From: Candidatus Cybelea sp.
GTDB lineage: Bacteria; Vulcanimicrobiota; Vulcanimicrobiia; Vulcanimicrobiales; Vulcanimicrobiaceae
Assembly: GCA_036489315.1 (NCBI GenBank)
Contig: DASXFZ010000001.1
Location: 1 to 64,000 of the forward strand
Length of the DNA stretch: 64,000 nt
Direction: 5' to 3'
In this document: piece by piece, positions 13,479 through 16,095 of the stretch
Layout of the letters: each line of letters starts with the position of its first letter
Position numbering within the stretch: position 1 is the first letter of the stretch
Notes under the pieces: model-generated
The model's database searches: none
What the model was told of the DNA's origin: nothing
What the model saw: the letters and a program-made list of their open reading frames with translations, nothing else
Translations under genes and position numbers: made by a program

Positions 13479-14125
13479 GGCGAAGGCGAGGGTTCCCCGC
13501 GACGGCGGAAGTGAAAGTGCGGGCAGCGATGCGTGATACAGTACGTACGCGCGTAGTGGCGGGCGCGCCATTCGTAGCCGTGCAGCGCGACCGTCAGCCG
13601 ATCGCCGAAAATCGTCAACAGCGCGCAGATCGGCACGGCGATGGCGCACATCGTCCACACGTGAATCCAGATCGGGACGCGAAAGGTGGCTGCCGTGGTC
13701 GTCGCGACGGTTCCGCCAAAACCCGGGATGACGCGCACTGCCAGCAAAAAGGCGGGAGAACCGACCGGAAAGCGTTTGACCCATGGCGGCAGCCGGTCGA
13801 GCGATTGTTGCAGATCGAAGAGTTTGGTCGCGTGCAGGTTGATCCAATAGCCGAGCAGCGCCGCGAAGAAGAGGCCAACCGCATCGATAAGCGTCCCCTT
13901 AACCGGGCCAAAGATCGCTCCATTCATGATCGCGAGCGCGTCGGTCACCGAAAACGGAGCGGACGCCACGACGGCAAAGATTACGATCGCGAGGGGATAC
14001 GCAAAGGGTCCGATTACCCGAATCACGTGCTCGACGTGCGGTTGATAGCGGATCACGAAGAACGCCAAAGCAAAGGAAGCTGCCAGCAGCGCGACGGCAG
14101 CGCAGCGCCGAAGAAGGCGGGTCAA
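13475..14125 (-). CDS. TVP38/TMEM64 (DedA-like) membrane protein
   Basis: About 216 aa from TTG 14125. Five or so hydrophobic segments, with the SNARE-associated (VTT) domain motif AIMNGAIFGPVKGTLI and the phrase RVIPGFGGTVATTTAA. Family members are thought to move phospholipids or to act in membrane homeostasis. The start is uncertain. TTG 14125 lacks a good ribosome site, and it lies three bases from the ATG of the divergent VKOR-like gene, so their promoters must lie inside each other's coding sequence. The C-terminal tail is rich in His and Arg. Confidence 0.8.
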   Translation of the reverse strand: MTRLLRRCAAVALLAASFALAFFVIRYQPHVEHVIRVIGPFAYPLAIVIFAVVASAPFSVTDALAIMNGAIFGPVKGTLIDAVGLFFAALLGYWINLHATKLFDLQQSLDRLPPWVKRFPVGSPAFLLAVRVIPGFGGTVATTTAATFRVPIWIHVWTMCAIAVPICALLTIFGDRLTVALHGYEWRARHYARTYCITHRCPHFHFRRRGEPSPSP

Positions 14126-14128
14126 GCG

Positions 14129-14530
14129 ATGATCGTACGCGGAATTATCACGGTTCTCTGCGGAGTTGGGCTCTACGCCTCGCTTTTCATGCTTCACAAG
14201 AGCCGGCGCGCCGCGCGCGGCGAGCTTCTCGGACCGAGCGTCGTTAAAACGCCCCGGGCACACCTTTTTGGCGTACCTAATTCCCTGCTCGGCGCGCTTT
14301 ATTACCCCTTTCTCGCGATCGCCGTGTGGTTCGTCGGACCTCCAGCGACGATTCTGCTGCTCGCCGCGGCCTTCTTCGCAGCCGCCACATCGGTCGTGCT
14401 GGGCTACTCCCTGCTCTTCGTAACCCGTCGAGGCTGCCCGTATTGTTGGACCTCCCACGTGGTGAATTGGGCACTGCTTGCTCTCTCTGCCTGGATTTTC
14501 GTTCCAGACGTATTGAGTAAAGGGATATGA
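14129..14530 (+). CDS. vitamin K epoxide reductase-family membrane protein
   Basis: 133 aa, four hydrophobic segments. The redox motif CPYC (in RRGCPYCWTSH, about residue 105-108) and the GVPNSLLGALYYPF helix are typical of bacterial VKOR homologues, which pass electrons from DsbA-like proteins to quinones. The extra loop cysteine pair of classical VKOR is not evident, so it may be a short, partner-dependent form. AAGGCGGG upstream supports ATG 14129. Confidence 0.85.
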   Translation: MIVRGIITVLCGVGLYASLFMLHKSRRAARGELLGPSVVKTPRAHLFGVPNSLLGALYYPFLAIAVWFVGPPATILLLAAAFFAAATSVVLGYSLLFVTRRGCPYCWTSHVVNWALLALSAWIFVPDVLSKGI

Positions 14531-14542
14531 TTTTGGTAAAAT
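14513..14542 (+). promoter_or_regulatory. promoter of the candidate small RNA
   Basis: TTGAGT (14513-14518), an 18-base spacer and TAAAAT (14537-14542), with TGG in front forming an extended -10. It overlaps the end of the VKOR gene. Predicted transcription start is about 14549. Confidence 0.55.
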
Positions 14543-14548
14543 CGGCGT

Positions 14549-14684
14549 CTCTGGTCAGGACGGCGAGAACGGTCGCCGAAACCGCCCGAGAAGCGGTGCC
14601 GGAAGCGTAGCGTTAGTTTCTACTTTCCGGCAAACGGCAGAAAATGAGGGGGTGGCGCGAGCGCGCCACCCCTCTGCTTTTCCT
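14549..14684 (+). ncRNA. candidate structured small RNA
   Basis: No ORF. Three successive hairpins are visible: CGGCGA/TCGCCG (14561-14566 with 14573-14578), ACCGC/GCGGT (14581-14585 with 14593-14597) and GCCGGAA/TTCCGGC (14598-14604 with 14625-14631), the last with an inner GTAG/CTAC stem. About 14 unpaired bases lead to a strong terminator. With the promoter upstream this forms a self-contained unit of about 135 nt. I recognise no known family (it does not look like SRP RNA, tmRNA, RNase P or a standard riboswitch). Expression is inferred only. Confidence 0.5.
14646..14684 (+). terminator. Rho-independent terminator of the small RNA
   Basis: GAGGGGGTGGCGC and GCGCCACCCCTC pair around GAGC, giving a 12-bp stem with one bulged G, followed by TGCTTTTCC. 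It would end the small RNA and any read-through from the VKOR gene. Confidence 0.75.
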
Positions 14685-14790
14685 TTTCGCGTTTTGCGGA
14701 CCGTTCGCGTTGTCGCGCGGGCCCTTGTGAACGATCGGAGTTCACGGCGGGCCCGCGCTCCTAGCGCCCGGCCCGCAAAACGTGAAAAGG
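14682..14790. repeat. 109-base rod-shaped inverted repeat
   Basis: The outer arms 14682-14699 and 14773-14790 match at 17 of 18 positions. Inner arms GCGCGGGCCC (14715-14724) and GGGCCCGCGC (14749-14758) pair perfectly, followed by GTGAAC/GTTCAC (14727-14732 with 14740-14745) and a seven-base loop. A central unpaired bubble of about 14-15 bases separates outer and inner stems. No T-run follows on either strand, so it is not an ordinary terminator. It may be a second structured RNA or a mobile palindromic relic. It also lies downstream of rpiB. Confidence 0.6.
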
Positions 14791-14818
14791 CTCCCCTCGG
14801 TCCTATGGGTCAATGGCC

Positions 14819-15253
14819 CTATTGGTGGCGGAGGGTGTCGATCATTGCGCGGTAGGCTGGGTCTTGCGTGGGGCAGGCGGCAAGCCACGCGGTCAGCATC
14901 TCGCCGGCGAGCGCCGGCGGCGTGGCGCGGATGCTCAAGCAGAGGACATTAGCGTCGTTCCATTCGCGCGCGCCTTCGGCGGTCTGGGCGTCGGCACAGA
15001 GCGCCGCTCGAACGCCGGCGACCTTGTTCGCGGCAATGCTCACCCCGGTGCCGGTCCAGCAGCAGAGAACCCCAAAATCGGCTTCGCCGGCGGCGACCGC
15101 CTCGGCGACGCTGCGTCCCACCGATGGCCACGCGTCGTCTGCGCCCGGCGCCAGCGCTCCGTAGCGGCGAACGCTGTGCGCTCGCTCGCGCAGCCAACGA
15201 TCGATCGCCTCCGGCAGCTCGCCGGCCATATCGCTTCCCAGTGCTACTCGCAT
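14819..15253 (-). CDS. rpiB: RpiB/LacAB-family sugar-phosphate isomerase
   Basis: 144 aa. Motifs of ribose-5-phosphate isomerase B are clear: GSDMAGELP at the N-terminus, CCWTGTGVSIAANKVAGVRA with the catalytic-type cysteine (about residues 64-66), and AREWNDANVLCLS. It interconverts ribose-5-phosphate and ribulose-5-phosphate, or a related sugar phosphate. Monocistronic, divergent from the NUDIX gene. The assignment to ribose rather than allose or galactose is by default. Confidence 0.9.
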   Translation of the reverse strand: MRVALGSDMAGELPEAIDRWLRERAHSVRRYGALAPGADDAWPSVGRSVAEAVAAGEADFGVLCCWTGTGVSIAANKVAGVRAALCADAQTAEGAREWNDANVLCLSIRATPPALAGEMLTAWLAACPTQDPAYRAMIDTLRHQ

Positions 15254-15273
15254 CGAGAGGTTTTCGCCACGCG

Positions 15274-16095
15274 GTGACAGGACGCTACTCTTTCGTGAAC
15301 GATGTGCGTTTGGCGGCTACGGTGATCCTCGCCCGTGCGCCGTTCGAGGTCTACCTAACGCGACGCAGCGCTCGCAGCGCGTTCGCTCCCGACGCGTTCG
15401 TCTTTCCAGGCGGTACGATCGAAGCGCAAGACTCTTCGGCCGCCATGCGAGAGCGGGCCGTGGGGCTGCAGGCCGAGCGCGTCAGCGAAGAGTTTCGCGC
15501 AACCGTTCCTGCGGCGCTGTCGACCAGCGAGCCGGCCGTCGATACCGACGCCGGCCGCGCGCTGCTCGTCGCCGCGGTGCGCGAGCTCTTCGAAGAAGCG
15601 GGCGTGCTCCTCGCCTGCGACGCCGCCAAGCACCCCGTCGGCGTGACGGGCGCCGATTTGGAAGCGGCTGCACGCGATCGGGTTGCGCTGCGATCGGGCG
15701 AGCTCGCGTTTTCCGAGTATCTGCGCCGCCGCGATTGGTTTGCCGACACGCGGACCCTCACGCTCTTCTCGCACTGGATTACGCCGCGCAGCGAGCCGCG
15801 CCGATATAACACGCACTTCTTCTTTGCGCTCGCGCCGCCGAACCAGGCCGCGCAAGCCGATGCCTACGAAACCCACGACGGTATTTGGATCCCCCCGCGC
15901 CTCGCTCTCGAACGCTACCGCGACAAAGAGCTGCATCTCGTCTATCCGACCATCAAACACCTCGAGCGTCTGGCGCTCTTCGATTCCCTGGGGCAAGCGC
16001 AGCGCTACGCGCGCAGCAAACCGGTTTTGACGATCATGCCGACGGACGGCGACGACGAATTTGCGATTCCGGCGGTGCTCGAAAACGCATGGTAA
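15274..16095 (+). CDS. NUDIX hydrolase with long insertion in the Nudix box (NUDT19-like)
   Basis: About 273 aa from GTG 15274. GTG 15295 is an alternative, and neither has a strong ribosome site. The Nudix signature is split: FPGGTIE is followed by more than 50 residues before AAVRELFEEAGVLL. Such an insertion is characteristic of the NUDT19/RP2 subgroup, some of whose members hydrolyse CoA esters. Catalytic glutamates of REL-EEAG are present. The stop overlaps the ATG of the following MBL hydrolase, as in the LACTB2-NUDT19-like pairing, so the two are co-translated. Confidence 0.85.
   Translation: MTGRYSFVNDVRLAATVILARAPFEVYLTRRSARSAFAPDAFVFPGGTIEAQDSSAAMRERAVGLQAERVSEEFRATVPAALSTSEPAVDTDAGRALLVAAVRELFEEAGVLLACDAAKHPVGVTGADLEAAARDRVALRSGELAFSEYLRRRDWFADTRTLTLFSHWITPRSEPRRYNTHFFFALAPPNQAAQADAYETHDGIWIPPRLALERYRDKELHLVYPTIKHLERLALFDSLGQAQRYARSKPVLTIMPTDGDDEFAIPAVLENAW

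Follow-up and report, generated by a model that had tools for sequence, protein, structure and literature searches.

A structured small RNA gene predicted behind vkor in one family of Candidatus Eremiobacterota

Does the space behind a bacterial VKOR-like gene hold a separate gene for an RNA, and if so, what kind of RNA is it? We addressed this question in a 64,000-nucleotide window, the whole stretch of DNA analysed, which belongs to a MAG (G000; 3.09 Mb in 64 contigs) whose nearest named relatives are Candidatus Eremiobacterota MAGs originating from soils and permafrost. The feature sits between a VKOR-like gene (vkor) on the plus strand and a convergent rpiB-like gene on the minus strand. 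An initial annotation, made from the letters of the window, had placed an unannotated, self-contained small RNA candidate here, in a gap free of open reading frames. The RNA itself is borne out, being conserved, covarying and located at the same place in relatives. The gap is not entirely ORF-free, as the −35 element and part of the promoter spacer lie inside the 3' end of vkor, a gene that spans 14129-14530. Judged by sequence comparison, the locus is a real, structured and selected RNA gene found in one family of Candidatus Eremiobacterota. Its features are:

14129..14530, plus strand: VKOR-like gene with a CPYC motif, of the vitamin K epoxide reductase family, from Pfam PF07884 and adjacent homologues in relatives
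14513..14518, plus strand: TTGAGT as −35 element, located within the vkor frame; TTG in 27/27 loci scored
14534..14542, plus strand: extended −10, TG-N-TAAAAT; TG-N-TAnnAT in 25/27 loci scored
14547..14682, plus strand: predicted sRNA transcript of about 136 nt, from its fold, a covariance-model match and a 5' end placed by the −10
14548..14591, plus strand: P1 hairpin; folds predicted in relatives with differing apical stems
14581-14585/14593-14597, plus strand: middle hairpin stem ACCGC/GCGGT, in the G000 sequence and not seen in relatives
14598..14631, plus strand: P2 hairpin, GCCGGAA/UUCCGGC with inner GUAG/CUAC and loop CGUUAGUUU; two-sided changes
14636..14682, plus strand: terminator domain with basal stem, A-rich bulge, upper stem, loop GAGC and U-rich tail; covariation
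14819..15253, minus strand: rpiB-like gene, convergent to the sRNA, from Pfam PF02502

The locus and its distribution

The RNA recurs throughout the host genus and reaches into other genera of the same family. BLASTN detected the RNA stretch in 15 of the 17 other same-genus genomes. A covariance model built from 14 same-genus sequences only (R1) found it in 16 of these 17, the exception being G006, which is 65% complete, and also gave strong matches in other genera. A second model, R2, built from the R1 matches, aligns to 14544-14682 of the window with an E-value of 1.8e-25, this very sequence being included in R2. Across 37 genomes in 9 genera, R2 gave 38 matches with E<1e-5, most of the matched sequences being themselves part of R2. 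All 38 come from a single family of Candidatus Eremiobacterota, and among 117 class genomes R2 had no match at E<=0.01 outside that family. Two kinds of match were discarded: a BLASTN match in another family (L017) has the look of a chance 32-nt match within a coding region, and weak model matches (E about 1e-3 or worse, such as L059) look like terminator only.

Beyond its presence, the position of the RNA is constant. The gene upstream matches Pfam PF07884 at 58.2 bits (cut-off 27.5) and is a gene for disulfide-bond formation, and the sRNA lies directly 3' of vkor in relatives also. Matches at E<1e-5 stand directly behind a VKOR-like gene wherever this could be checked (the contig of L051 starts 60 bases upstream), and the models contain no vkor sequence. 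Evidence for vkor is weak or partial at L055, L035 and L038; nowhere was the RNA clearly found in the absence of vkor. Several sibling genera carry vkor with no RNA detected (for example G019, G060 and G083), which shows that the RNA is dispensable.

The P2 motif, together with a promoter-like site, also occurs at the same locus in six further genera (g52, g45, g48, g47, g2 and g5), whose sequences score weakly or not at all with the model. These are probably divergent versions of the RNA; the version in g52 reads CUCGAGAG...GGGAGCUGAGUCUACCGCCGGU.

A structured RNA that ends in a terminator could in principle be a leader or riboswitch of the gene downstream. The neighbouring gene makes this almost certainly wrong: rpiB adjoins the sRNA in the same-genus loci that have enough sequence, and is convergent in the genus. 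Other genera also show long open frames on the opposite strand; such frames occur on both strands, however, and L055 may differ.

Fold and covariation

The RNA is predicted to consist of a P1 hairpin, a P2 hairpin and a two-part terminator stem, in that order. The predicted transcript (14549-14684) folds at z = −4.5 relative to dinucleotide shuffles. Without the terminator, the remaining portion folds better than shuffles across 12 genera (Stouffer z about −6.0), single sequences being mixed.

Support for the fold comes from A5, in which 23 sequences from six genera were aligned with plain MAFFT and no fitting to structure. The pairs of P2 and the terminator form in 95.5% of cells (84.4% in shuffles; 32-54% for slid partners), and two-sided changes occur at 15 of 23 pairs, a result reached by 0 of 500 shuffles. 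They fall in six of the seven P2 pairs counted and in nine of the 11 pairs of the upper terminator stem (14648-14658/14663-14673). Both P2 and the upper stem of the terminator thus show clear covariation, which together with the shuffles rules out a chance structure. The basal stem (GGCAG 14636-14640/CUGCU 14674-14678) pairs in all 23 sequences and is almost invariant; because it hardly varies, it gives no covariation information.

P1 has a closing helix (UCUC 14548-14551/GAGA 14588-14591) and an apical stem (CGGCGA 14561-14566/UCGCCG 14573-14578). The hairpin appears in most predicted folds, with the apical variants CGGCGA/UCGCCG, GGUC/GACC, GCGGA/UCCGC and GGUGA/UCACC. Tested sequence by sequence, the closing helix did not reach significance, and its register slides between lineages; recurrent folds and consistent placement are what point to P1.

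This architecture revises the one first proposed, which comprised three perfect stems of 6, 5 and 7 bp ahead of a terminator stem with a T-rich tail. All three stems are in the sequence. The first belongs to P1 as its apical part, closed by UCUC/GAGA, and does not stand alone. The third, the P2 outer stem GCCGGAA/TTCCGGC at 14598-14604/14625-14631, is extended by inner GUAG/CUAC pairs. The 5-bp middle hairpin (ACCGC/GCGGT) is not conserved, and we dropped it as a structural element since it was not seen in relatives and the P1 closure is supported instead. The terminator stem and its tail are present at about 14648-14673, with the stem lengthened by the basal GGCAG/CUGCU pairs.

The primary sequence is conserved as well. 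Pairwise identity within the genus is 80% for the RNA, compared with 71% for the vkor coding sequence and 48% at vkor fourfold sites, and the RNA exceeds the whole vkor coding sequence in 87 of 91 pairs. The conserved parts are the promoter, P1, P2 and the terminator, so conservation extends beyond the terminator. Open reading frames inside the RNAs do not exceed 78 nt, a length at which we rejected a coding sequence.

Promoter, terminator and the link to vkor

The extended −10 promoter that had been proposed is present, with TTGAGT and TAAAAT (14537-14542) separated by an 18-nt spacer and TG at 14534-14535. It is the only such promoter-like site in 1.5 kb (shuffles gave 0.1 +/- 0.3). Among the loci scored, TTG precedes TAnnAT by 17 or 18 nt in 27 of 27, the extended TG is kept in 25 of 27, and the −35 often falls within the last part of vkor. 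In G000 the promoter lies at the end of the upstream coding sequence, with the vkor stop codon in the spacer; the stop falls within the −35 in G005 and G013, and upstream of the −35 in g19. Because the stop codon shifts relative to a constant promoter, it is the DNA motif of the predicted promoter that is conserved, rather than the end of the vkor protein. By its motifs the promoter is sigma-70-like and located at the gene end.

The terminator may serve two transcripts. On the plus strand, the region 13800-15300 contains a single terminator-like site, which is that of the sRNA. We saw no separate vkor terminator upstream of the sRNA, so the intrinsic terminator is probably shared with the vkor mRNA, for which its sequence would make it usable. 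Some relatives have a weak U tail (CTGCTCATT, CTGCTATGT). Self-contained, as the RNA was initially called, thus holds for its own predicted promoter and terminator; it does not hold in the strict sense, since the promoter overlaps the vkor end and the terminator may also end the vkor mRNA.

These features invite a reading in which the structure acts in cis, as a 3' UTR or terminator that sets the stability or termination of the vkor mRNA, the promoter-like motif being minor. The fixed position behind vkor, the lack of another terminator seen before that of the sRNA and the very stable fold all agree with such a role. We nonetheless regard it as rather unlikely: the extended −10 is preserved as a DNA motif in different genera, also where the vkor stop has moved, the sequence conservation of P1 and P2 goes beyond the needs of a stabilising hairpin, and several sibling genera have vkor with no RNA detected.

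As a separate observation, the terminator loops (for example 14655-14666) are nearly always GAGU/GAGC, GAUU or GUGU in a GCGC-type stem, across genera. Such a loop may be a preferred one for terminators of this lineage, though over the entire window the motif shows no enrichment.

Known RNA classes and a possible function

The statement that the RNA matches no nameable family holds. Rfam 15 at gathering thresholds returned no match for the window or for 16 related loci, and its E-value mode gave weak matches only, far below gathering scores. In the papers searched we found nothing on sRNAs in Eremiobacterota. The RNA family therefore appears newly described and confined to a single family within a phylum that is largely uncultured.

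Two housekeeping RNAs, 6S RNA (RF00013) and bacterial small SRP RNA (RF00169), share the size range of small structured RNAs with the sRNA, which is single-copy as well, and a divergent copy of either could be imagined. Each differs in having its own distinct matches elsewhere in the genomes tested. SRP RNA is located elsewhere in G000 and five relatives, and weak 6S-like matches occur in four of six genomes, all at other places and none in G000; no covariance-model match to either RNA falls on the sRNA locus. With a structure unlike SRP or 6S RNA and no Rfam match, we rejected this identity as very improbable.

The closest known kind, as far as anatomy can tell, is the 3'-end sRNA whose promoter is embedded in the upstream gene. 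In Salmonella, the promoter of DapZ lies at the 3' end of dapB, shortly before the stop codon (PMC9438474). DapZ and similar 3'-end sRNAs share with the RNA described here an ORF-embedded promoter, a short transcript and, probably, use of the host gene's terminator (PMC9438474); host gene, sequence and phylum differ. MicL of E. coli also has its promoter inside the upstream gene, cutC (PMC9438474), but it starts mid-gene, is processed from a precursor of ~300 nt and is sigma-E dependent, in contrast to the sigma-70-like promoter at the vkor gene end.

Dependence on Hfq further separates the vkor RNA from DapZ. Hfq had no match in 17 of the 18 genus genomes (G000-G017), G000 among them, with one match in G017; nor was it found in any of the eight genomes of genus g19. 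DapZ is Hfq-dependent. Nearly all of the Hfq-less genomes of these two genera carry the RNA, and g10, g51 and g49 have Hfq and carry it too, so genomes retain the RNA whether or not they have Hfq. Elsewhere in the host family, Hfq is present in most genera. Given the 17 of 18 genus genomes without a match, the most likely role of the RNA is that of a small regulator that works independently of Hfq, which would make it a case for how sRNAs function in the absence of this protein.

The P2 loop offers a candidate site of action. Its pattern, AGC-N2-4-AG-N0-2-CU, is common to most genera, with conserved flanks and variable middle bases; g19 lacks it. If the RNA bound a protein as a sponge or scaffold, instead of acting as an antisense RNA, this loop would be the putative binding site. 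Conserved flanks around a variable middle resemble a recognition motif more than an antisense seed, the motif is present in most genera, and Hfq was not found in the genus. We hold this to be unlikely all the same, as g19 retains the RNA although its P2 loop differs. The version of it in which CsrA is the protein fares no better: CsrB/RsmZ-type RNAs, which titrate CsrA, carry many GGA motifs in hairpin loops. The RNAs described here are likewise hairpin RNAs in CsrA-encoding genomes, but with 1-4 GGA each they have too few for a CsrA sponge.

We return to a dedicated sRNA gene with its own predicted transcript, acting in trans as a regulator without Hfq, which we consider reasonably probable. 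RNA polymerase would start at the extended −10 promoter embedded in the vkor gene end and produce an RNA of roughly 136 nt comprising hairpins P1 and P2, followed by the intrinsic terminator. Transcribed on its own, this RNA would regulate in trans by short base pairing, by a protein that recognises the conserved P2 loop, or by both. Linkage to vkor may couple the RNA to the disulfide-forming (redox) state of the cell; the adjacency could also be passive, which would count against this part. We think it quite unlikely that the whole of a more specific proposal applies: an Hfq-independent, lineage-specific regulator tied to disulfide formation, with a dedicated protein reading the P2 loop and divergent versions, such as that of g52, at vkor. 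The constant place behind vkor nevertheless suggests a testable link between the sRNA and periplasmic redox, and a covariance model and alignment now exist for annotating the RNA in other genomes.

Two further observations concern the surroundings of the RNA. One genome, G035, has two vkor-sRNA-rpiB loci, L048 (contig C12) and L050 (contig C23), which reflect either a duplication or a mixed bin. Directly 3' of the sRNA terminator lies a palindromic hairpin of ~107 nt (14683-14791), single-copy in G000 and so not a multi-copy repeat. It is missing in the close relative G014. G003, G004, G009 and G011 have it at the corresponding site, with an outer stem that differs in sequence and still pairs.
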